In this document: in pieces, positions 1 through 18,686 of the stretch
Position numbering within the stretch: position 1 is the stretch's first letter
How the letters are laid out: each line of letters begins with the position of its first letter
Assembly (NCBI RefSeq): GCF_000454545.1
Contig: NZ_CM002140.1
Location: 16,345 to 35,539, forward strand
Direction: 5' to 3'
Length of the DNA: 19,195 bases
From: Xanthomonas cassavae CFBP 4642
GTDB taxonomy: Bacteria > Pseudomonadota > Gammaproteobacteria > Xanthomonadales > Xanthomonadaceae
The notes under the pieces: model-generated
Told to the model about the DNA's origin: nothing
The model's database searches: none
The model's input: the letters and a program-made list of their open reading frames with translations, nothing else
Program-made: the position numbers and the translations under genes

Positions 1-176
1 TGCATGTAGGGGTAGCGAATGGCGTATTCGCGCGGCCGGACGCGGGTGGCCGTCTTGTCGTCAGAGCAACGCGGCAGATAGGGCGCTTCGGTGAGCACGC
101 GATTGAGCGCGGTGCCCGACTGGAAAAAGCGGTCTGCTGTCTGGTTGTCTAGTTTCTGTACCGTTGTACCTGCCAT
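1..176 (-). CDS. plasmid replication initiation protein, N-terminal part (runs off window)
   Basis: An open frame starts at the ATG at 174-176 and reads leftwards off the window, giving 58 residues with no stop. In-frame stop codons just upstream of this ATG leave no earlier start. The visible part, with the motifs APYLPRCSDDKTATRVRPRE and YAIRYPYM, resembles the N-terminus of plasmid Rep proteins of the Replicase/primase-C-terminal type (PF03090), as I recall them. Those proteins bind the origin and start replication. A GAGGGG ribosome-binding sequence sits only about two bases from the ATG, so unassisted initiation may be poor. That fits control through the leader (177-423), which carries a probable antisense RNA. 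The catalytic part lies outside the window, so the family call is tentative. Confidence 0.6.
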   Translation of the reverse strand, partial: MAGTTVQKLDNQTADRFFQSGTALNRVLTEAPYLPRCSDDKTATRVRPREYAIRYPYM

Positions 177-202
177 AACCCCTCATCACACGTCCCGTAG
201 GG

Positions 203-214
203 GCGTGCGCACGC
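203..214. repeat. 12-bp perfect palindrome GCGTGCGCACGC
   Basis: A perfect palindrome lies directly beside the -35 box of the rightward antisense-RNA promoter and inside the rep mRNA leader. It could be a repressor site or an RNA hairpin near the rep start. The role is inferred from position only. Confidence 0.4.
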
Positions 215-243
215 TTGCGCGCAGGGGCTAAGACTCGTACAAT
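215..243 (+). promoter_or_regulatory. promoter of the putative antisense RNA
   Basis: TTGCGC at 215-220 and TACAAT at 238-243 are separated by exactly 17 bases, close to the sigma-70 consensus. The promoter points rightwards, against rep. A transcript starting near 250 would reach the terminator hairpin at 342-361. Confidence 0.65.
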
Positions 244-249
244 GGAAGC

Positions 250-368
250 ACTTTCAGTCGCTTTATTGCACTGGTACAGAGTTCACTCGCCAAAGCGAAC
301 GCTGTATTTGTCTGGGCACCCTGCCCTGTTTATCTGTCAAGGCCCGCTCGCCAAAGCGGGCTTTGTCG
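250..368 (+). ncRNA. putative counter-transcribed RNA controlling rep expression
   Basis: The predicted RNA is about 115 nt, from the promoter at 215-243 to the hairpin at 342-361, and is fully antisense to the rep mRNA leader. It has two 20-nt stem-loops, 281-300 and 342-361, each with a 7-bp stem and the loop CGCCAA. The second doubles as a terminator. On the rep mRNA the loops read UUGGCG, which contains the YUNR U-turn motif and is the loop I recall from antisense-controlled plasmids of the IncI-alpha, IncB and IncL/M groups. Loop-loop kissing would start duplex formation and repress rep. The two hairpins carry identical loops, which is unusual and might allow double kissing. No longer ORF on the plus strand here looks real. 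Confidence 0.6.
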
Positions 369-418
369 TTTCTGACTCTCCAGTTTTCTGCTGTCTGGTC
401 AGCTCTCTCCTTTGCCAT
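263..418 (-). CDS. possible leader peptide ORF upstream of rep
   Basis: An open frame of 51 codons starts at the ATG at 416-418, just after the stop of the upstream ParC-like gene, and ends at the TAA at 263-265, 87 bases before the rep ATG. It runs through both UUGGCG hairpins. In IncFII and IncI plasmids a translated leader peptide (Tap, RepY) couples ribosome passage to unfolding of the rep start, and the antisense RNA blocks that leader. The layout here is the same. The peptide (starting MAKERADQTAEN) resembles nothing I recognise and its ribosome-binding site is weak, so coding status is uncertain. Confidence 0.35.
   Translation of the reverse strand: MAKERADQTAENWRVRNDKARFGERALTDKQGRVPRQIQRSLWRVNSVPVQ
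342..371 (+). terminator. intrinsic terminator of the antisense RNA
   Basis: GCCCGCT and AGCGGGC form a 7-bp stem around CGCCAA, followed by TTTGTCGTTT. The U tract is imperfect. The same hairpin read on the other strand is the UUGGCG kissing loop of the rep leader. Confidence 0.6.
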
Positions 419-423
419 GACGG

Positions 424-738
424 TCACTCGTCTGCATCCACAGACGCCGGGGCTTGCTTGTAGCCCCGCACCATCGTCTTGGGCACCCAGTGCTCCGTGT
501 TCACATCAAACTTCATGATCCCGTAGCCCTGCAAAACGCTTGCAGCGCCATCGAGACTCTGGAAGTACCGGAGGCCGCCACGGGCAGCCCCCAGCACTCG
601 CTCATTCATTCCGGCCCGCACTAGGATCAGAAGGCCCTTGTCACCGGGTTCCACTCGGGCGGCGGAAACCGACCCAGCGGCGATGAGTTCCTTCAAAACC
701 TTCGGCGCGACCACACTAGCAGTTGTCGTCAGCATCAT
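424..738 (-). CDS. small plasmid protein, ParC-like partition-associated (tentative)
   Basis: A 104-aa protein begins with two Met codons (736-738 and 733-735), with AGGG about eight bases upstream. The segments GSVSAARVEPGDKGLLILVRAGMNE and GGLRYFQSLDGAASVLQGYG recall small proteins found beside parA and rep on proteobacterial plasmids, often labelled ParC-family partition-associated. The first of these segments is residues roughly 22-46. There are no membrane spans or signal peptide. The gene lies between the parAB operon and rep, all read leftwards, so it may share a transcript with rep. The name rests on recalled resemblance; the biochemical role is unknown. Confidence 0.6.
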   Translation of the reverse strand: MMLTTTASVVAPKVLKELIAAGSVSAARVEPGDKGLLILVRAGMNERVLGAARGGLRYFQSLDGAASVLQGYGIMKFDVNTEHWVPKTMVRGYKQAPASVDADE

Positions 739-818
739 TTATACCCTGTTCCGCGCCCAACCGCAACAATATCAGAATTCGTTGCGCCTTCTGCTGCATG
801 GCGTTAGTGTCGTCGCTT

Positions 819-838
819 GTATGGACTATAGTCCATAC
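819..838. promoter_or_regulatory. 20-bp perfect palindrome, probable operator
   Basis: GTATGGACTATAGTCCATAC is a perfect 20-bp palindrome in the gap between the end of parB (883) and the start of the ParC-like gene (738). It is well placed to be a dimeric repressor site for the leftward ParC-rep transcription unit. It differs from the TATATAC-type repeats nearby, so a different protein probably binds it. Confidence 0.5.
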
Positions 839-847
839 TGGAAATCG

Positions 848-884
848 TTATATATATACATAGATAAGTATATATATACCTATC
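848..884. repeat. AT-rich parS/operator-like repeat, two units, downstream of parB
   Basis: Two units of the form TATATATAC followed by A/CTA lie side by side, the second reading AAGTATATATATACCTATC. The same unit recurs upstream of parA at 1842-1860, 1918-1941 and 2137-2172. Repeats bound by ribbon-helix-helix partition proteins often lie on both sides of type Ib par operons. The repeats overlap the last codons of parB. Confidence 0.5.
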
Positions 885-1206
885 AACCCTTGAGGAAGGC
901 CTCCAGTGCCTCGATCACGATGTCCTTCTCCGTGACCCGGCCGCCCTTCTCTTCCGAGCGCTTGAGCGCTTCGCGCCGCAGGTGATCAGCCAGTTCCTCG
1001 GGGAAGTTGAAGATTTTTTGCACCCGTGCGCGGCCGTAGCGCTGCGTTTCCTCAGCAGCGGGCGGCGTGGCTGCCGGTGTCGTGGTCACGGCAGCAGGTG
1101 CCACCAGCGGCTTCTCGGCCTTGTCCGCCTCCCCGCCTTCGAGGAAGGCGGTCGGGTCTTTGGGCGGCTTGAACTGCGCCGTGTTGGGCTTGCCCTTCAT
1201 GCTCAT
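883..1206 (-). CDS. parB: ribbon-helix-helix partition protein, ParB analogue of a type Ib system
   Basis: The protein has 107 aa. Residues 1-55 are low-complexity, rich in Pro, Ala and Thr, and look disordered. Residues about 60-107 hold an RHH-like segment: a short strand (ARVQKIFNFPEE) followed by two helices (LADHLRREALKRSEEK and VTEKDIVIEALEAFLKG). This is the design of ParG/ParB-small partner proteins of type Ib partition, where the flexible N-terminus stimulates the ParA ATPase and the RHH domain binds centromere repeats and represses the operon. Its ATG overlaps the parA stop (ATGA), and the parA 3' end supplies GGAGGTG at good spacing. AT-rich repeats flank the operon. It could be another RHH regulator, but the coupling to parA argues for partition. 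Confidence 0.75.
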   Translation of the reverse strand: MSMKGKPNTAQFKPPKDPTAFLEGGEADKAEKPLVAPAAVTTTPAATPPAAEETQRYGRARVQKIFNFPEELADHLRREALKRSEEKGGRVTEKDIVIEALEAFLKG

Positions 1207-1829
1207 GCCATCACCTCCTTGAAGAAGGCTTCCATCTCGGCGATGGCGGCTTGATCGCGGCCCAGCTCCTGAACGGTCGCACCCTCGCCAATGGCGCGGC
1301 GGAAGGCCACGCGCTCGCAGACCTTGGTGGGCAGCACGGTCAGCTTCTGCTCGGCCAAGAATTCCAGCATCTCGGCCGCATCCTTGGTGCGTGGATCGAC
1401 GCGGGTCAGCAGCACGCGCACGTCCAGCTCGGGGTTGTAGTCGCGGGCCAGCTCGACGACTTCCAGCAGGTCAGTCATGGCCGCTGCGTCCAGATTGGAG
1501 GCACCGACCGGGATCACGGCACTCTGGGCCAGCAGCAGCGCGGAGCGCAGGCCCACGGAATCACGGCCGCCTGCATCGACGACGACGTGCTCAAAGCCGG
1601 TGGCCAGTTGCTTGCCTTCGGCCAAGATCGCCTTGCCAGCGAGGCAGGTGGTGGTGGGCGACGGGTCGTACTGCGTCTCACGACGCCATGCCGCCCAGCT
1701 CGCGGCCGAGGCCTGCGGGTCGCCGTCGATGAGCAGCGTCTTGCCCTGACGGGCCAGCATCACTGCCAGATGCACGGCGGTCGTGGTCTTGCCGACGCCG
1801 CCCTTGGTGTTGACACACGCGAAGATCAT
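1203..1829 (-). CDS. parA: ParA-family partition ATPase (type Ib)
   Basis: A 208-aa protein opens with the deviant Walker A box VNTKGGVGKTTTAVHLA (residues 6-22, signature lysine in KGGVGKT), then LLIDGDPQASA (Walker A'; about 33-43) and HVVVDAGG (Walker B; about 81-88). It has no N-terminal DNA-binding domain, which places it among short type Ib ParAs. It would bind the nucleoid with ATP and move the plasmid held by its RHH partner. The ATG at 1827-1829 has TAGGAG six bases upstream. It is translationally coupled to parB by an ATGA overlap. Expression is probably repressed by the partner through the AT-rich repeats just upstream. Confidence 0.92.
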   Translation of the reverse strand: MIFACVNTKGGVGKTTTAVHLAVMLARQGKTLLIDGDPQASAASWAAWRRETQYDPSPTTTCLAGKAILAEGKQLATGFEHVVVDAGGRDSVGLRSALLLAQSAVIPVGASNLDAAAMTDLLEVVELARDYNPELDVRVLLTRVDPRTKDAAEMLEFLAEQKLTVLPTKVCERVAFRRAIGEGATVQELGRDQAAIAEMEAFFKEVMA

Positions 1830-1841
1830 GGGTGCTCCTAT

Positions 1842-1860
1842 CTATGTATATACATACCGA
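1842..1860. repeat. AT-rich repeat at the parA start, parS/operator candidate
   Basis: A 14-bp perfect palindrome TATGTATATACATA (1843-1856) lies 13 bases upstream of the parA ATG, flanked by CTA and CCGA as in the other copies. Binding here would block parA transcription or translation start. Confidence 0.55.
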
Positions 1861-1917
1861 TGGGCAGCGCGGCGGCTGGCCCTCGACCTGCCGGGTGCAT
1901 CCCCGGCCCTGTGACTC

Positions 1918-1941
1918 GGTAAGTATATATATACCTACCGA
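1918..1941. repeat. AT-rich repeat upstream of parA, second copy
   Basis: A near-perfect palindrome is centred on TATATATATA with GGTAAG on the left and CCTACC on the right. It shares AAGTATATATATACCTA with the copy at 867-882. It lies about 75 bp from the copy next to parA. Confidence 0.55.
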
Positions 1942-1950
1942 CGCTTTTGA

Positions 1951-2139
1951 ACATCCGACCCCAAAACCTGTCGCTTCGAGCAAGCAAGCAAGCAAGCCGC
2001 TTTGCACGCCGCCGACGTGGCCGTGGTCAACGATGACACGGACGTGCAGGTCATCAGTGACCACCAGCCGCCCAAGCGCTGGCCCAGCGGCGAGCCGCTG
2101 GTGGCTGGCGTCGAGTTCGAGCGCGAGCTGTTCGAGTAG
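1951..2139 (+). pseudogene. orphan C-terminal ORF fragment
   Basis: The frame is open from 1951 to the TAG at 2137-2139 with coding-like codon use in its second half, ending in an acidic tail (PLVAGVEFERELFE). There is no ATG; the only starts are TTG at 2002 and GTG at 2017 or 2023, with no ribosome-binding site. Four CAAG units (1980-1996) sit in its first half and may mark a slippage scar. It is best read as the 3' remnant of a lost plasmid gene. I do not recognise the family. Confidence 0.3.
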
Positions 2140-2172
2140 GTATGTAGGTATATAGGTAGGTATATATATACA
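2137..2172. repeat. TAGGTA / TATATATAC repeat cluster upstream of the HAD fragment
   Basis: TAGGTA begins at 2137, 2145, 2153 and 2157, then TATATATATAC runs into the ATG of the HAD-like fragment. The motif matches the par repeats at 1918-1941, so this is probably the outermost part of the partition site and may also regulate the rightward gene. Confidence 0.5.
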
Positions 2173-2256
2173 TGAAGCCCATAAGAGCCATTGTCTTTGA
2201 CCCCTTCGGCACCCTGATCCGCTACACCGTGCGCCCTGCACCCTACGGGCGTCTCG
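2172..2256 (+). pseudogene. HAD-superfamily hydrolase, N-terminal fragment
   Basis: The frame starts MKPIRAIVFDPFGTLIRY. AIVFDxFGTL is the hallmark motif I of HAD hydrolases, with the nucleophilic Asp at residue 10. Similarity ends after about 28 residues (PYGRLV); the frame then runs into unrelated sequence, so motifs II to IV are missing. The start directly follows a par repeat. HAD genes beside par loci occur on related plasmids, so this was probably a backbone gene cut by a rearrangement. Confidence 0.6.
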
Positions 2257-2281
2257 TGGACGCGACCGGGCGGCCGGTTGA

Positions 2282-2398
2282 TCGGCTCACCTCAATGTCG
2301 TGCGGCTCGCAGGCGATGCGCAAGAACTTGATGACGAACGTGTGCAGGCGATCTAGCGCGCCCTCCGTCTGGTTCTTCTCGATGGCCTCGCGGACGTA
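2282..2398 (-). pseudogene. abortive-infection C-terminal domain (Abi_C-like), internal fragment
   Basis: The minus strand encodes about 39 residues from YVREAIEKNQ to IEVSR, including EGALDRLHTFVIKFLRIACE. This resembles the ALDRLHTFxxKFLRxLC block of abortive infection (Abi_C, PF14355) proteins as I recall them. Neither the start nor the usual continuation (a DKPLHS-like block) is present; the frame breaks off into unrelated sequence at both ends. It is a dead fragment of a probable phage-defence gene, wedged between a HAD fragment and an IS3 fragment. Confidence 0.5.
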
Positions 2399-2409
2399 CG
2401 GCCCAGAAG

Positions 2410-2475
2410 GTGCGCATTCGCTTGATCCACCACAGCGACCGGGGCGTGCAGTACGTGTCGATCCGCTACACCGAG
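2410..2475 (+). pseudogene. IS3-family transposase OrfB fragment
   Basis: The plus strand encodes RLIHHSDRGVQYVSIRYTE, the block around the second catalytic Asp of IS3-family OrfB integrases (HHSDRGxQY). It stops after IRYTE, where full-length proteins continue with a helix and the DNALAE block. Only about 65 bases remain, so it is an IS scar and may have caused the surrounding truncations. Confidence 0.7.
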
Positions 2476-2505
2476 GCAGGAAGGCGTGCAGCGCACGGCG
2501 CTGCT

Positions 2506-2530
2506 CCCCGCCCTGAACGGCGGGGTTTGT
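2506..2530 (+). terminator. GC-rich hairpin with T tail
   Basis: CCCCGCC and GGCGGGG form a 7-bp stem around CTGAAC, followed by TTTGTC. It may terminate rightward transcription. A hairpin of this look also occurs at the right ends of IS200/IS605-type elements, so it could be an insertion-sequence remnant. Confidence 0.45.
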
Positions 2531-2614
2531 CGCGCACCGGGTCAGCCGCCGGCGCTGCCGGCGTTCGTGTTGGAGCGCCCGTCCGGATGCAGGTGCGCCG
2601 GCGCGAGGGCCGAG

Positions 2615-2706
2615 ACGTCCACGCCTGGCCCACCGATCGCCGCCGGCGGGCGGAACCGCCCACCGGCGGGCCTTGCGGCCGCGCTCCGTGGACCAGGCGT
2701 GGACGT
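2615..2706. repeat. inverted repeat with inner hairpin (cruciform-capable)
   Basis: ACGTCCACGCCTGG (2615-2628) is exactly inverted as CCAGGCGTGGACGT (2693-2706); with one mismatch the arms extend to 19 bp. Between them, 2641-2653 and 2656-2668 form a second inverted pair of 13 bp with one mismatch. Confidence 0.7.
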
Positions 2707-2828
2707 TCGGCAATCGGCAGGTCCGCCCACCCTTCGCCCACCGCTTCCCCCACCCCTGGGGGTGCAAGGGGCACCCCCGACGGGCCGGGGCGGCGCCGCT
2801 GGCGCCGGCCGTGGACGAAGCGTGGACG
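2688..2828. repeat. direct 18-bp repeats GTGGACnnnGCGTGGACG
   Basis: GTGGACCAGGCGTGGACG at 2688-2705 and GTGGACGAAGCGTGGACG at 2811-2828 differ at three bases. A third, inverted copy lies at 2616-2633. Each unit itself contains two GTGGAC half-sites 11 bp apart, one helical turn, which looks like a protein-binding site. Confidence 0.6.
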
Positions 2829-2925
2829 GCCGCGCACCTGAGCTGGCCACCCTTGGGGTGTCCAGCCTCCGGGCCGCTGTTCAGCGTCCCTGCGCGCCCC
2901 TACGGGGCTTGTCCGCCCCTGCGCC

Positions 2926-3315
2926 TTACATCCCGGCCAGCTTGGCGCCAACGAAGCCGCCCACCACGCCGGCGACAAACGCGAACCCAGCCAGCAGCAG
3001 CACGAACCGCCGCGCCTTGCTCTCAAACGCCGCATTCGCGGCGACGACCTGCGCCGCGCCGCTATTGAGCTGATTCCCGATCTGCGCGGCTGCATGTCGG
3101 CCAGCTTCGGTGAGCTTCTCGGCGTTCTTGTCGATGACCGACTCGAAATTGAGCTTGGCGGCCAGGAACGCCTTTCCGGCCGCGTCCGTTGTCGCCTTCT
3201 CGATCTTTCCGGACAGTGCCTCGTCTGCTTGCTCGAAGCGACGCACGAGGGTGTCGGCATCTTGCAGCAGCTCGGCCATGAGCGCTTCACGGGCCGTCGA
3301 TACGTTACTCCCCAT
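2926..3315 (-). CDS. stbC: StbC-like membrane-anchored plasmid stability protein
   Basis: A 129-aa protein is the last gene of the leftward stb operon, 12 bases after stbB. Residues about 1-100 are Ala/Glu/Lys-rich and helical, probably coiled coil. Residues about 104-126 (RRFVLLLAGFAFVAGVVGGFVGA) form a single hydrophobic segment near the C-terminus, so the protein is likely a tail-anchored inner-membrane protein. Position and order match stbC of R388, whose function is not settled. The ATG at 3313-3315 has a GGGG ribosome-binding sequence. The name is given by context rather than by recognised sequence motifs. Confidence 0.7.
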   Translation of the reverse strand: MGSNVSTAREALMAELLQDADTLVRRFEQADEALSGKIEKATTDAAGKAFLAAKLNFESVIDKNAEKLTEAGRHAAAQIGNQLNSGAAQVVAANAAFESKARRFVLLLAGFAFVAGVVGGFVGAKLAGM

Positions 3316-12013: not shown

Positions 12014-12340
12014 TCACTTAGCGATGCCCAAGAACACGGCCAGGCAGCGCTCAATTTCCACCAACGCATCAGCGTCTACGCGCCCAAAGGCTCGACCTAC
12101 CTTGTCACGCTTCACGGTCATGGCCTTGTCCACCATCACCTGAGACGGCTTCTGCAAACCATTGTCGGTACTTGGATGAATGGTAATGCGCAGCAGCGGC
12201 GCAGCAACGAGCGTGCTTGTCACCGGCAGCACCGTCACGGTGGTGTGTGCGTCAAACTGGTCGGCCTGGATCACCAGAGCGGGCCGTGGTTTTCCGAAGT
12301 CGCCTTGCATGGCGATGGTCACAAAGTCACCCCGCATCAT
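12014..12340 (-). CDS. mazF: MazF/PemK-like mRNA-interferase toxin
   Basis: A 108-aa protein starting MMRGDFVTIAMQGDFGKPRPALVIQAD. RGDxVxxxxxxxxGKxRPAlViQ is the hallmark start of MazF/PemK/ChpB toxins; further family-like blocks are TVTVLPVTSTL and PSQVMVDKAMTVKRDKVG. Such toxins cut mRNA at short motifs. The ATG at 12338-12340 overlaps the antitoxin stop; the second Met (12335-12337) gives the more family-like MRGDF start. The pair reads leftwards, facing the end of trwC, and is probably repressed through the repeat pair at 12568-12612. Confidence 0.92.
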   Translation of the reverse strand: MMRGDFVTIAMQGDFGKPRPALVIQADQFDAHTTVTVLPVTSTLVAAPLLRITIHPSTDNGLQKPSQVMVDKAMTVKRDKVGRAFGRVDADALVEIERCLAVFLGIAK

Positions 12341-12555
12341 TCCGTCCAGCCATCCATGTCTGCTAGCGCCTCATCCATGAAGCGCTGCATGTCGGTGTCC
12401 GCCATGTCCGCTTGTGCAGCAAGACGACACTGACGGCGGCATTCCTCGGCGAAGTCAGGCCGCCGTGTGTCCGGCACCCAAATTTGCACCGGACGCAGCC
12501 CTGCCATGCGCAGGGCGTCGCGGTGCTTTTGAACTCGTGAATTGACGTGTGCCAT
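12337..12555 (-). CDS. mazE: MazE-family antitoxin (DUF3018 type)
   Basis: A 72-aa protein starting MAHVNSRVQKHRDALRMAGL and containing LRPVQIWVPDTRRPDFAEECRRQ, which I recognise as the DUF3018 MazE-family antitoxin pattern. The acidic C-terminal helix (MQRFMDEALADMDGWTE) would bind and block MazF. The frame is open further upstream to 12663, but only the ATG at 12553-12555 lies downstream of the promoter and gives the family N-terminus. Stop and toxin start overlap. Confidence 0.88.
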   Translation of the reverse strand: MAHVNSRVQKHRDALRMAGLRPVQIWVPDTRRPDFAEECRRQCRLAAQADMADTDMQRFMDEALADMDGWTE

Positions 12556-12567
12556 GTTGGCCTCACC

Positions 12568-12612
12568 GTTACATGCAACAAGTTTACGCCTCATTTTTGT
12601 TACATGCAACAA
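12568..12612. promoter_or_regulatory. mazEF promoter with two operator repeats
   Basis: GTTACATGCAACAA occurs twice, at 12568-12581 and 12599-12612, 31 bp apart (three helical turns), each nearly palindromic around CATG. Between and within them, on the minus strand, are TTGCAT (12604-12609) and TAAACT (12581-12586) with a 17-bp spacer. Both boxes are overlapped by the repeats, a typical autorepression layout. Confidence 0.7.
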
Positions 12613-12732
12613 AAGTGGGACTTTCGGTGGTTCCGGCTTGGTGCCCCAAGAAGCCGCCGACACCGCGCAAGCCGCGCCAGTACGGCCGGTTCCAGTGACA
12701 AGCCCTAGCGCGCGTCTGGCTTTGGGAGCCGG

Positions 12733-13128
12733 TCACAAAAGATGCGCTGATTGCCCTTGGGCAGAGAGAAGTGTCACTGCCTTCTTATCGAAGGAAACGA
12801 AGGTTTCCCCACCAAGCCAATTACCTTCGTAGGCAATGACGCCATCGGCAAAGTCACCGCCTGCGTCGAGCACCAGCAAACCGGCCTCCACGGCGGGCCG
12901 GTTCACTTCCACGTTGGCGGCGGCCAGTAGCGCCCGGATCGCGTCGGCCGCGTCAGATTGCTGGAAGCCATAGACGCGCATCAGCACCCAGACAAATTCG
13001 CATAGGCACGGCAGCGCGACCGCGATCAACTCGGCATCGGTCAAGACTGCGGCGGCAACGTCCGCTTGTGCGGGATCGTCACGCACAACAGCACGCACAA
13101 GGACGTTGGTATCGACTGCGACCTTCAT
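12733..13128 (-). CDS. vapC: VapC-like PIN-domain ribonuclease toxin
   Basis: A 131-aa protein starting MKVAVDTNVLVRAVVRDDPAQ, the PIN-domain opening with the first catalytic Asp (D6 in VDTN). Other acidic residues fit the active site: E in LCEFVWVL (about 44), DFADGVIAY (about 94-102) and FVSFDKKA (about 113-120). VapC toxins cut tRNA or rRNA. The start at 13126-13128 overlaps the antitoxin stop (ATGA); an earlier in-frame ATG at 13143 lies inside the antitoxin and gives a less family-like N-terminus. Confidence 0.93.
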   Translation of the reverse strand: MKVAVDTNVLVRAVVRDDPAQADVAAAVLTDAELIAVALPCLCEFVWVLMRVYGFQQSDAADAIRALLAAANVEVNRPAVEAGLLVLDAGGDFADGVIAYEGNWLGGETFVSFDKKAVTLLSAQGQSAHLL

Positions 13129-13376
13129 TGCTTGCCTGCCCATCCTTGTGCAGCCGCCTCGTTGATTTCTTCGATGGTGGCAACTTTCTGCGTCTTACCC
13201 GCGAGCAGGCCGACAAAGCTGGCTATCGTCCCTGCGGGCCGTGCCGCCTTGAGTACTCCCCGACCATCTGGCAGCAAGTCAAGCTCGATCTTGTCGCCTG
13301 GCCTAATGCCGAGGTGTTGCAGTACGTCCTTCCGAAACGTCACTTGTCCACGTGCGGTAACGGTCAATGTGGTCAT
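13125..13376 (-). CDS. vapB: VapB-like AbrB/SpoVT-fold antitoxin
   Basis: An 83-aa protein starting MTTLTVTARGQVTFRKDVLQHLGIRPGDKIEL, a swapped-hairpin AbrB-type DNA-binding domain (residues 1-45), followed by a toxin-binding tail (ATIEEINEAAAQGWAG). The frame is open to 13517 but the ATG at 13374-13376 gives the family start and has GAGG nine bases upstream. It would repress its operon via the palindrome at 13412-13433. It overlaps vapC by four bases. Confidence 0.92.
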   Translation of the reverse strand: MTTLTVTARGQVTFRKDVLQHLGIRPGDKIELDLLPDGRGVLKAARPAGTIASFVGLLAGKTQKVATIEEINEAAAQGWAGKQ

Positions 13377-13411
13377 GGTGATGTGCCTCGCAATCTCATG
13401 GATCGACGTAT

Positions 13412-13433
13412 AGTAATGCAAAAAAGCATTACT
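13412..13433. promoter_or_regulatory. vapBC operator palindrome
   Basis: AGTAATGC and GCATTACT are exact inverted 8-bp arms around AAAAAA, 36 bp upstream of the vapB ATG. TATACG on the minus strand next to it may be the -10 box. Confidence 0.6.
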
Positions 13434-13437
13434 TGCA

Positions 13438-13554
13438 CTGTCCGTCAAACGATCGTTTGTCGGTCGTGCCGGACGCTGTCCTGAAAACTGCTTGTGCAAC
13501 GGGTTGTCGGACACCAAGATAGACGGACGGAATGGCGGACAAGATGGATGGCAA
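13438..13554. other. candidate resolvase recombination site (res)
   Basis: The 14-bp palindrome CAAACGATCGTTTG (13446-13459) is flanked by CCGT and TCGG, giving a 22-bp near-perfect dyad with AT at its centre, as expected for a crossover site. TGTCGGACA and GCGGACA-like half-sites follow up to the resolvase ATG and could be accessory sites. The position beside the resolvase gene is typical. Confidence 0.45.
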
Positions 13555-14127
13555 ATGGCACTGATCGGCTATGCGCGGGTATCAACGGCGGAACAGGACA
13601 CCGCTTTGCAGACGGATGCGCTGCGCAAAGCAGGCTGCGAGCGCGTTTTCGAGGACACGGCTTCCGGGGCCAAGGCTGACCGCCCCGGTTTGGCTGATGC
13701 GCTGGCCTACCTGCGCAACGGCGACGTGCTGGCCGTCTGGCGGCTGGACCGGCTTGGGCGCTCCATGCCGCACCTGATCGAAACGATAGGCGCGCTGGAA
13801 GCGCGAGGCGTCGGCTTTCGTTCGCTGACGGAAGCCATCGACACCACCACGCCGGGCGGGCGGCTCATCTTCCACGTGTTCGGCGCGCTGGGCCAGTTCG
13901 AGCGCGACCTGATTCGCGAGCGCACCAAGGCCGGGTTGAGTGCCGCCGCCGCTCGCGGGCGCAAGGGCGGACGCAAACCAGTCATCACCGCCGACAAGTT
14001 GCAGCAGGCACGTAAACACATCGCCAACGGGCTAAATGTCCGGGAGGCCGCTACACGGCTCAAGGTGAGTAAAACAGCCTTGTATGCAGCTCTGCAATCC
14101 ACCAGTGCAGGAGATCTCCAAAAATGA
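13555..14127 (+). CDS. Tn3-type serine resolvase
   Basis: A 190-aa protein starting MALIGYARVSTAEQDTALQ, with the nucleophilic Ser in ARVST (residue 10), the DRLGRS block (about 64-69), the LIFHVFGALGQFERDLIRERT helix (about 101-121), and a C-terminal helix-turn-helix (NVREAATRLKVSKTALYAAL). Enzymes of this family resolve cointegrates or plasmid multimers at a res site. The frame continues upstream, but the ATG at 13555 gives the canonical N-terminus. No Tn3 transposase is in the window, so it could serve as a stand-alone plasmid multimer resolver or be a Tn remnant. It reads away from vapBC. Confidence 0.93.
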   Translation: MALIGYARVSTAEQDTALQTDALRKAGCERVFEDTASGAKADRPGLADALAYLRNGDVLAVWRLDRLGRSMPHLIETIGALEARGVGFRSLTEAIDTTTPGGRLIFHVFGALGQFERDLIRERTKAGLSAAAARGRKGGRKPVITADKLQQARKHIANGLNVREAATRLKVSKTALYAALQSTSAGDLQK

Positions 14128-14182: not shown

Positions 14183-15481
14183 CAGGCTGCTGAAATATCT
14201 CTAGCCAGCATAGACTGTTCTCGTTCCACCAACGGTAGATCATCGATGCGCGGCGTAGACGTCTTCAGCGAGCAGTTGTTCACGGTGAAGCGGCTGGATG
14301 ACTTCATCCCGGGCACGCATCCGTTGCGCCCCGTGCGCGAGATGGTCAACGCGACGCTGAGGCGCCTGGATGGCTTGTTCGAACCCATGTACGCGCCGAG
14401 CTACAAGGGAGGCCGCCCGAGCATTGCGCCAGAGAAGCTGGTGCGGGCCATGTTGCTGCAGGTGTTCTACAGCATCCGTTCCGAGCGTCAGTTGATGGAG
14501 CAGGTGCAGTACAACCTGCTGTTCCGCTGGTTCATCGGACTGTCGATGGATGACGCGGTCTGGGTGCCAACGGTGTTCACCAAGAACCGCGAGCGACTGA
14601 TCGAGCATGACGTGGTGGTGGCGCTCTTCAACGATGTCGTGGCGATGGCTGACGCCGAAGGTTGGTTGTCGGGCGAACACTTCAGCGTGGACGGTACGCT
14701 GATCCAGGCCTGGGCCGGGCACAAGAGCTTTGTGCGCAAGGATGGGGCTGACGATGGAGATGGCGCCGACTTCCGTGGCACGTCGCGTAGCAACGATACG
14801 CATGCATCGACCACCGATCCGGACGCACGCCTGTACCGGAAGGGTAAGACAGCCAGCGAACTTCGCTACATGGGCCACACCCTTACGGACAACCGTCATG
14901 GCTTGATTGCCAATGCGCGGGTGACTCATGCCGATGGCTACGCCGAACGTGAAGCGGCCAAGGCCATGATCGGCGATGCATGCCAGGCCAACCCGGAAGG
15001 CGCACTGACGCTGGGTGCGGACAAGGGCTATGACGCGGCCGAGTTCGTCAAGGCCGTGCAGGAGATGAAGGTTGTCCCGCACATCGCGCAGAACACCAGC
15101 AACCGGCGCTCAGCGGTCCCGAACGCCATTGCCGCAAGCGATGGTTATGCGATCTCGCAGAAAAAACGCAAACTGATTGAACAGGGCTTCGGCTGGGCCA
15201 AACTGATTGGACGCATCCGGCAGGTCATGGTGCGCGGCTTGGACAAGGTGGATCAGATCTTCGTGTTGAACATGACCGCCTACAACCTGGTGCGCATGCG
15301 CACCTTGGGGCAGTTGCGCCTGCAGAGCGAAAAACCAGCATGAAAGGCAGCAAAATTGCACTGAATTGGGCTATCGAGACCCCGAAACGGCTCAGCGACG
15401 GTCAAGCTTTCACCAACGCATCCAGATCGACTTTCCTGGACGATCATCGTCGTTGATCTTCAGTCGTATTTCCGCAGCCTG
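14183..15481 (+). mobile_element. IS5-family insertion sequence
   Basis: The left end CAGGCTGCTGAAATAT (from 14183) and the inverted right end, CAGGCTGCGGAAATAC read from 15481 leftwards, match at 14 of 16 bases. They bound one transposase gene. The flanking tetranucleotides, CTAG on the left and TTAA on the right, each fit the YTAR target of IS5 elements but differ, so no target duplication remains. The 138 bases after the transposase hold no gene. Confidence 0.7.
14246..15343 (+). CDS. IS5-family DDE transposase
   Basis: A 365-aa protein. The N-terminal part (KRLDDFIPGTHPLRPVREMV, then PSIAPEKLVRAMLLQVFYSIRSERQLMEQ) is the IS5-type DNA-binding region; DDE residues are visible in FSVDGTLIQAW (first Asp, about 149), LGADKGYDAAEF (second Asp, about 253) and LIEQGFGWAK (Glu, about 312). 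An insertion with HASTTDPDARLYRKG between the first two acidic residues is typical of one IS5 subgroup. Full length and apparently intact. Confidence 0.95.
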   Translation: MRGVDVFSEQLFTVKRLDDFIPGTHPLRPVREMVNATLRRLDGLFEPMYAPSYKGGRPSIAPEKLVRAMLLQVFYSIRSERQLMEQVQYNLLFRWFIGLSMDDAVWVPTVFTKNRERLIEHDVVVALFNDVVAMADAEGWLSGEHFSVDGTLIQAWAGHKSFVRKDGADDGDGADFRGTSRSNDTHASTTDPDARLYRKGKTASELRYMGHTLTDNRHGLIANARVTHADGYAEREAAKAMIGDACQANPEGALTLGADKGYDAAEFVKAVQEMKVVPHIAQNTSNRRSAVPNAIAASDGYAISQKKRKLIEQGFGWAKLIGRIRQVMVRGLDKVDQIFVLNMTAYNLVRMRTLGQLRLQSEKPA

Positions 15482-17610: not shown

Positions 17611-18686
17611 TTCCTGATTAGCCCCATCGCTCAGCCGGCAGTTGCAGGATTTGCGACGAGTCGGTTGGACAATGGTCCCACGTGAATACAACGCAGGTGG
17701 GAGATGGGCATCAACATCGTGCAGTTTCAGCCAGGCTTGTCGCTGAGCGAGTTCATGGATCGCTACGGAACCGAAGCCAAGTGCTACCGGGCGTTGTATC
17801 GGTGGCGCTGGCCGAAGGGATTTCGCTGCCCGCAGTGCGACGGCCGCGCGCGCTCGCGCTTTCGACGCGATGATCAGGTGTACTACCAGTGCCGGGCGTG
17901 CCGGCATCAAACCACCTTGCGTGCCGGCACGCTGTTGCAATCCAGCAAGCTGTCTTTGCGCCTGTGGATGCAGGCGATGTACCTGCTGACATCCAGCAAG
18001 ACCAACCTGGCAGCCCTGGAGTTGAAGCGGCATCTTGGAGTGACCTACAAGGCGGCCTGGCGCATGAAGCACAAGATCATGCAGGCGATGACCGAGCGCG
18101 AAGAGCCACGAAAACTCAAGGGGTTTGTGCAGATCGACGACGCCTACCTTGGCGGCGAACGCAGCGGAGGCAAGCGCGGACGAGGCTCGGAGAACAAACA
18201 GCCGTTCGTGATCGCGGTGCAAGTGGACCAGAACAATGAACATCCTAGCTTTGCGGTGATCGAGCCGGTGAAGGCCTTCGACAACGCCTCGCTGAAGGAC
18301 TGGATCGCGCGCCGTCTGGAACCGGAGTGTGAAGTCTATAGCGACGGCCTGGCGTGCTTTCGCCGTCTGGAGGAGGCCGGGCATGCCCACACCACCCTCG
18401 ATACCGGCGGCGGTCGTGCTGCAACCGACGTCCAGGGAGCGCGTTGGTTGAATGTGGTGCTGGGCAATATCAAACGCGCCATCAGCGGGACCTACCATGC
18501 GGTGGGCCAGGCCAAGTATGCAAGGCGCTACCTGGCCGAGGCGGCCTATCGCTTCAACCGCCGATTCGATCTGAAACAGATGCTGCCGCGGCTGGCGACG
18601 GCGCTGCTGCGCTGCACACCTTGCCCAGAACGCGTTTTGCGTATGGCAAGCAACTTCCATGGCTGAGGGATGGGGCTAATCAGGAA
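17611..18686 (+). mobile_element. IS1595-family insertion sequence (ISXo type)
   Basis: The terminal inverted repeats at 17611-17636 and 18661-18686 match at 25 of 26 bases; the shared outer part is TTCCTGATTAGCCCCATC. One transposase gene fills the 1.08-kb element. The expected 8-bp target duplication is not visible: CATTCCCT precedes the left end and TGATTAAG follows the right end. Confidence 0.85.
17704..18666 (+). CDS. IS1595-family transposase (ISXO2-like DDE)
   Basis: A 320-aa protein. Residues about 40-75 form a zinc ribbon (CPQCDGRAR ... YYQCRACRHQT). The catalytic domain shows FVQIDDAYLGG (first Asp), VYSDGLACF (second Asp) and the YLAEAAYRFNRRFD block with the Glu. The Gly/Arg-rich loop SGGKRGRGSENKQ after the first Asp is typical of the ISXO2 group. 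The start at 17704 has GGTGGGAG just upstream. Full length and apparently functional. Confidence 0.95.
   Translation: MGINIVQFQPGLSLSEFMDRYGTEAKCYRALYRWRWPKGFRCPQCDGRARSRFRRDDQVYYQCRACRHQTTLRAGTLLQSSKLSLRLWMQAMYLLTSSKTNLAALELKRHLGVTYKAAWRMKHKIMQAMTEREEPRKLKGFVQIDDAYLGGERSGGKRGRGSENKQPFVIAVQVDQNNEHPSFAVIEPVKAFDNASLKDWIARRLEPECEVYSDGLACFRRLEEAGHAHTTLDTGGGRAATDVQGARWLNVVLGNIKRAISGTYHAVGQAKYARRYLAEAAYRFNRRFDLKQMLPRLATALLRCTPCPERVLRMASNFHG

Follow-up and report, generated by a model that had tools for sequence, protein, structure and literature searches.

We describe a rep control module in a 19,195-nt stretch of Xanthomonas cassavae CFBP 4642 DNA (contig NZ_CM002140.1, positions 16,345 to 35,539; hereafter the window). 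A predicted plus-strand antisense RNA of ~115 nt probably pairs with the rep leader through two UUGGCG loops and shuts off translation of a ColE2-type Rep, by way of a switch between a linker and an anti-Shine-Dalgarno (anti-SD) strand. What is unusual here is the duplicated loop, together with a likely translational switch, in a conserved antisense-type module of a known replicon class; the replicon itself (pHS87a/pTiK12) and UUGGCG as a generic kissing loop are already known. Antisense control of rep, proposed in a first-pass annotation of this DNA, stands as the best reading, with the RNA itself predicted.

Locus layout and the predicted antisense RNA

The minus strand carries, in order, parA, a small ORF, parC, a 247-base leader and the start of rep. 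The ParA ATPase gene (1203..1829) was assigned from its ORF and domain match, and the small ORF in the ParB position (883..1206), annotated as hypothetical, matched no Pfam family. parC (424..738), encoding a ParC family partition-associated protein and lying immediately upstream of the control module, was assigned from the annotation of the matching gene and from tblastn relatives. The window contains the first 58 codons of rep (1..176), which are preceded by a Shine-Dalgarno-like GAGGGG in rep-mRNA sense (179..184, minus strand), located 2 bases short of the ATG by sequence and leader alignment. Plasmid matches to window 1-900 were headed by ten Xanthomonas citri plasmids (99.4-99.7%).

The Rep family was determined from a full-length relative (P0002) that is 97% identical to the window Rep across the first 59 residues and contains PF03090 Replicase (E 3e-48) and PriCT_1, which places it in the ColE2/PFP type; PF03090 is also the family of ColE2 Rep. 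A chromosomal ColE2-type rep without the leader module occurs elsewhere in the same genome (L004 2775-4256; G000 contig 6, ~3906894) as a 493-codon frame with 97% identity to residues 10-401 of P0002. It adjoins ssb-like and parA-like ORFs, labelled by eye, and resembles a piece of an integrative element. Further along the window, translations read by eye suggest a MazF/PemK-type toxin, a VapBC-type pair, a resolvase and two transposases (ORFs 12014-12340, 12733-13517, 13492-14127, 14246-15343 and 17704-18666).

Within the leader, a predicted plus-strand promoter (215..243) consists of TTGCGC (215-220), a 17-bp spacer and TACAAT (238-243). The first-pass annotation called it near-consensus; the elements are present as described, but the wording was too generous, because the -35 matches the consensus at 3/6 positions and the -10 at 5/6, below the 9-of-12 threshold of the promoter scanner, which left it unlisted. 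Across 26 aligned leaders, every column opposite the TTGC core of the -35 or one of the six -10 bases is invariant or at least 90% conserved. From the promoter and terminator positions and the fold, the antisense RNA would extend over 250..371 (~115-120 nt).

This predicted RNA contains the two hairpins with identical CGCCAA loops that the first-pass annotation had reported. Both are indeed present on the plus strand: SaL2 at 281..300 (loop 288-293) and SaL1 at 342..361 (loop 349-354), each supported by folding and covariation and each presenting UUGGCG in the rep mRNA. The window plus strand has 13 CGCCAA and 10 TTGGCG in total, and the 11-mer CTCGCCAAAGC occurs on it twice, both times in these hairpins. 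SaL1 doubles as the terminator-like end of the antisense RNA and scored as terminator-like on the plus strand, with U merely scattered in its tail; SaL2 did not appear among the terminator-like hairpins in the window scan. One inner pair of the window SaL2, a G-U in the mRNA, becomes A-C in the antisense RNA.

Folding of both strands, the check proposed by the first-pass annotation, bore out the structure. The plus-strand RNA 250-376 folds at -46.6 kcal/mol (z = -4.25), a value that 0/200 shuffles equalled, and the rep strand 150-420 gives z = -3.75. Rfam returned nothing in the window at gathering scores.

Conservation of the twin loops and a second Rep family

To place the module in a wider context, we searched plasmid sequences with window 150-440 and obtained 103 records at E <= 1, of which 91 cover at least 80% of its length. 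Most are Xanthomonas (79/103), and the others include Comamonas (4), Pseudomonas (2), Vitreoscilla, Diaphorobacter, Pandoraea and Chitinibacter. A Rep scan of one genome per species yielded 40 loci, with start codons estimated from the match. The window, 11 plasmid loci and 14 of these 40 were aligned with MAFFT (n = 26), three near-duplicates (L005, L006, L008) being omitted. The 26 Rep-scan loci left unaligned are chiefly PFP Pseudomonas and more distant loci lacking twin loops; L046 and L047, where the start was not reached or the leader was cut off, fall outside this judgement.

Both loops read UUGGCG in 23/26 aligned leaders, and in the Comamonas endophytica leader (L016) both have changed to UUGACG. 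Twin identity is broken in L056 (UUGGCG with UUGACG) and in L026 (UUGGCG with a different second loop). The stems, in contrast, vary with compensation: SaL2 exists in several sequence versions with double changes at 6/7 pairs, and SaL1 has double changes at 4/7 pairs with 99.4% of cells paired. For the two hairpins and a third small stem together, pairing holds in 96% of cells and 47 are doubly changed, against 10.4 in shuffles; 0/500 shuffles reached any of five measures, and slid controls came nowhere close. The hairpin structure is under selection, its stems varying with compensation while its loops stay constant.

Hairpins with related loops were also seen among the unaligned loci. L039 has three UUGGCG hairpins at a different spacing and L055 has one. 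Five PFP leaders (L032, L037, L041, L052, L053) each have one TTGGCG-loop hairpin (AGCCCCGG TTGGCG CCGGGGCT) in terminator position at ~-309 to -323, where other PFP Pseudomonas leaders have a different loop.

A covariance model of SaL1-SaL2 matched 8 of 297 family genomes. Three of these matches were useful, namely the window's own genome (G000), G231 and G254; the other five were weak (E 1.6e-4 to 8.7e-4), with a TTGGCG hairpin in 1/4 inspected. Across 369 class genomes, the model gave 3 matches: G000 and two weak ones without a TTGGCG hairpin.

Plasmids with dissimilar Reps were reached through ParC relatives (393 records). The Reps of six of them (L077, L078, L079, L102, L103, L105) are mutually 69-86% identical, contain no PF03090 and show no blastp match to the ColE2-type Rep at E 1e-3; the plasmid database assigns four (L077, L078, L103, L105) to IncP. 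In these second-family plasmids, the module occupies the same site between parC and rep, in the same layout. The first-pass annotation had presented the duplicated loop, next to a Rep of apparently different family, as a new arrangement. The duplication is real and conserved, and the Rep does belong to another family, but the arrangement is no one-off, as it recurs in 91 plasmid records and with a second Rep family.

We examined 16 further modules, partly by eye (L075, L076, L077, L078, L079, L080, L081, L082, L085, L096, L102, L103, L104, L105, L106, L107). In 12/16, SaL1 and SaL2 have a common loop core, UUGGCG in ten, including L102 and L104 with one additional U in SaL1, and GUGGCA in two (L081, L105). 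The standard SaL2 is missing or different in the remaining four, where an extra hairpin upstream of SaL1 is involved; counted with that hairpin, the loops are both GUGGCA in L079 and L096, both UUGGCG in L106, and UUGACG plus UUGGCG in L080. The twin-loop identity rule thus has exceptions. However, because identical pairs occur with different loop sequences, a single optimal loop can hardly explain twin identity by itself. We counted the constancy of the loops in 23/26 leaders and their paired changes (UUGACG in L016, GUGGCA in L081 and L105) in favour of a twin-loop antisense reading. At the parC 3' ends of L077, L078, L085, L103 and L104, a further GGTGGCACC-like hairpin lies upstream of SaL1 and is a possible third module loop.

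The ParC search matched 13/297 family and 3/369 class genomes. Among 17 stretches following ParC matches, those judged by eye (all but L086, L088, L090 and L094) contained the module in L096 and L085 and none in the others. L096 lies on the window's own contig, to the left of the window, where a second par-rep unit of pXAS25/IncP-6 type (12120-14072; L096, L108) comprises a 485-codon frame, a Rep sharing 75% identity with the L079 Rep, and loops that read GUGGCA. The plasmid or scaffold carrying the window may therefore have two replicons.

A long-range helix and a candidate translational switch

RNAalifold on the 26 leaders pairs part of the SaL1-SaL2 linker with a strand just before rep. The linker (301..327, minus strand) forms the 5' strand of this helix and lies within the antisense target; the 3' strand (218..243, minus strand) includes an anti-SD C-run at ~223-228, and duplex tests support both assignments. 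The DNA strand opposite the 3' strand is the antisense promoter. Because the 3' strand is the complement of that promoter, the predicted antisense RNA would lack it, yet would span the linker.

Since the register of the helix shifts between clades, we used a register-free duplex test on 22 hand-chosen leaders and 15 hand-chosen clade representatives. Left out of the 22 were L079/L096 and L080/L106, which lack the standard SaL2, and L075, L076, L081 and L107, which resemble included leaders. In the 22 leaders, cognate linker/3'-strand duplexes averaged -25.9 kcal/mol, while permuting the partners gave -19.2 (sd 0.9; 0/5000); the corresponding values in the 15 one-per-clade leaders were -25.4 and -18.5 (sd 1.1; 0/5000), and a test on 16 leader types likewise counted in favour. 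For three control pairings of neighbouring segments, the counts were 3854, 131 and 46 of 5000 (22 leaders) and 4083, 96 and 303 (15 leaders), so that two of the three were also low, though far weaker than linker/3'-strand. Held to fixed MAFFT columns, the helix is weakly supported: 77.7% of cells are paired and the covariation score is reached by 2/500 shuffles, while its double changes stand at shuffle level (3 pairs versus 2.7; 292/500 reach it).

In 22/22 leaders, the anti-SD and the 3' strand have at least 3 bases in common, and SD/anti-SD complementarity taken alone was not significantly above shuffles in any of them (lowest p 0.06). When leaders were ended before the SD, the helix was predicted in 22/22 (6-23 expected pairs). 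Locking the helix left the SD more open than covering the antisense region did in 19/22 (medians 0.57 versus 0.22); the window follows this trend at 0.28 versus 0.18, and L012, L013 and L025 go the opposite way. In equilibrium folds of the 26 leaders, the free SD was more open than the covered one in 16 and no different in 10, the window included, and a cruder SD segment gave little difference in most of the 22. For the full-length window leader, locking the helix costs 5.2 kcal/mol relative to the best fold, and long-range pairs amount to 0.1 at equilibrium, a preference for the closed site. Since it is the helix-locked comparison that separates the states, in 19/22, the argument for the switch is a kinetic one.

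Under the favoured reading, the linker of the nascent mRNA would pair with the strand upstream of rep and hide the anti-SD, leaving the ribosome site open; this open form would be the kinetic product, formed first. The antisense RNA would kiss one or both loops, zip along the leader and mask the linker while the anti-SD has yet to be transcribed; left free, the anti-SD would then close the rep Shine-Dalgarno. Twin identical loops would offer two equivalent docking sites, and more plasmid copies would give more antisense RNA and less Rep. In pT181/pIP501 attenuation, antisense binding to the nascent leader chooses between two exclusive helices, with a terminator as the outcome. The logic of choice would be the same here, the outcome being a closed ribosome site.

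A plainer antisense block of translation, which we consider unlikely, would have the duplex alone lower Rep, through RNase III cleavage or enhancer loss, with the long-range complementarity as a by-product and no anti-SD switch. It accommodates all the antisense evidence without calling on the weaker switch evidence, the predicted SD difference in the window is nil or small, and ColE2 is described as controlled post-transcriptionally by a small antisense RNA (PMC5304414). Against it stand the co-variation of linker with anti-SD strand across clades (0/5000) and the overlap between anti-SD and helix 3' strand in every one of the 22 leaders.

Rival readings and relation to known systems

The first-pass annotation took UUGGCG as a pointer to the control of the IncI-alpha, IncB and IncL/M plasmids, in which the loop also forms an activating pseudoknot. 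Such I-complex type control would have UUGGCG pair with a CGCC upstream of rep, the antisense RNA blocking the pseudoknot, and we regard it as improbable. The loop sequence is identical, the 4-base CGCC does occur in the window leader, and L016, with loop UUGACG, has CGUC there. However, a 4-mer partner of the SaL2 loop (G-U allowed) was found within the last 53 bases before rep in 18/22 leaders, against 18.3 expected from mononucleotide shuffles, and an exact one in 8/22, so that the pseudoknot was rejected on partner frequencies at chance level. The full CGCCAA is missing from the rep-sense strand opposite window 1-2941, in agreement with the first-pass observation that no such partner lies near the rep start. 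A coupled leader peptide is doubtful: no conserved frame was seen in the 26-leader alignment, and one-base gaps between the hairpins (e.g., in L012) shift any frame through both. The Rep, moreover, is of PF03090 type, and RepZ, the I-complex initiator, belongs to another family. As a pointer to such control UUGGCG found no support: the same loop is described for loop-loop regulators derived from R1, IncB pMU720 and ColIb-P9 (PMC3753616), which marks it as a generic kissing loop. IncI-alpha, IncB and IncL/M share this kissing loop in the rep leader (PMC7646527, PMC3753616), and the present module differs from them in its two loops, its absence of a pseudoknot signal and its Rep family. The co-varying linker/anti-SD helix, which the first-pass annotation overlooked, could take over the role of the absent pseudoknot.

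Alternatively, there might be no antisense RNA at all, the hairpins being a pair of ordinary intrinsic terminators that share a favoured loop, end the par operon and insulate rep. SaL1 is indeed terminator-like, and the same 26-bp SaL1 hairpin precedes a U run in a Vibrio phage-plasmid, in plain-terminator style (L057, ~2501-2526; L058 matched likewise). Ten Vibrio records matched, with 26 bp each among the six listed, and in the two inspected the hairpin is single, with no twin; the Vibrio matches were accordingly rejected as module members. This occurrence means that a CGCCAA loop alone is no evidence of antisense control. We nevertheless hold the terminator reading to be very improbable: SaL2, which the scan did not list as terminator-like, has a conserved loop and a co-varying stem, and the plus-strand promoter bases are conserved as well.

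The closest described replicon is that of pHS87a (L012) from P. aeruginosa HS87, which matches window 150-440 over its full length (100%) at 92.4% identity, with the same control region and RepA type. It was reported as nearly identical to the pTiK12 replicon of Thiobacillus intermedius and linked to pXAC33 and pXAC64, with mention of an upstream stem-loop (PMC4739549). The word "antisense" occurs 0 times in that paper, and the available part of its text mentions neither a twin loop nor a switch. Within the literature searched, as far as its text was available, we found no description of twin loops or of a linker switch, and no copy-control mechanism for these plasmids; older ColE2-related and ColIb-P9 papers lay outside that scope, so novelty in print is uncertain.

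The REx-C element of PFP/RepJ replicons offers a precedent. There, one control module can be swapped between Rep families and determines incompatibility; few changes, clustered in a single stem-loop of the putative antisense RNA, lift it (Bardaji et al. 2017, PMC5304414). The present module would work in a similar way to REx-C, which has three stem-loops upstream of ColE2-type and unrelated reps, a putative antisense RNA and an incompatibility determinant (PMC5304414); judged from natural plasmids, the present module is likewise portable between two non-homologous Rep families (no blastp match at E 1e-3). In the accessible part of that work, REx-C is reported from Pseudomonas only, its SaL2 loop is variable and a pseudoknot is argued against, while a linker/anti-SD helix is not described (PMC5304414). 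In contrast, both loops are nearly constant in our module, and the leaders of its PFP relatives lack twin UUGGCG. Homology to the REx-C core (175-194 nt) was not found: Pseudomonas accounts for 2/103 records matching window 150-440, versus 136/249 when 1-900, with the rep start and parC, was searched.

Other systems share single features. ColE2 has a PF03090 Rep, as here. Its 5' leader is the target of an antisense RNA (PMC5304414), where ours is predicted. The IncP-6 cluster (Rms149, p10265-KPC) consists of parABC followed by rep (PMC4785139). The window has this gene order, parABC directly upstream of rep; the IncP-typed L105 and L081 share its module anatomy with twin loops, but these read GUGGCA. 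Unlike IncP-6, the window has a PF03090-type Rep with no blastp match to the six IncP-6-type Reps. RA3 (IncU) was set aside as a model, control there being exerted by RepA and RepX (PMC9455977).

Taken together, the control module looks like a portable cassette, judged from natural plasmids. We tentatively extend this to a copy-number cassette of beta- and gammaproteobacteria, a reading we hold at somewhat less than even confidence, in which the paired loops (UUGGCG, UUGACG, GUGGCA) would serve as an address and the linker as the actuator of a kinetic anti-SD switch; the cassette could be plugged in before unrelated Reps, and incompatibility would change via both loops. Loop-loop chimeras from pMU720, R1 and ColIb-P9 share TTGGCG yet are orthogonal, their differences lying just below the loop (PMC3753616), and this orthogonality would fit stems that vary while loops stay in this module. 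Two modules with different loop pairs in one genome, as on the window's contig, fit the address model as a single case. Conversely, pXAC33 and pXAC64, both of strain 306, have identical control regions over window 150-440 (the same differences to the window). This is not expected if incompatibility depends simply on the loops, unless pXAC64 relies on its second typed replicon, as it may.

Antisense shut-off of Rep is predicted to set the number of plasmid copies per cell, and the module offers a simple way to ask why an antisense loop should be duplicated. If true, a loop-pair address combined with a linker switch would explain both how one cassette serves unrelated Reps and how related plasmids become compatible.
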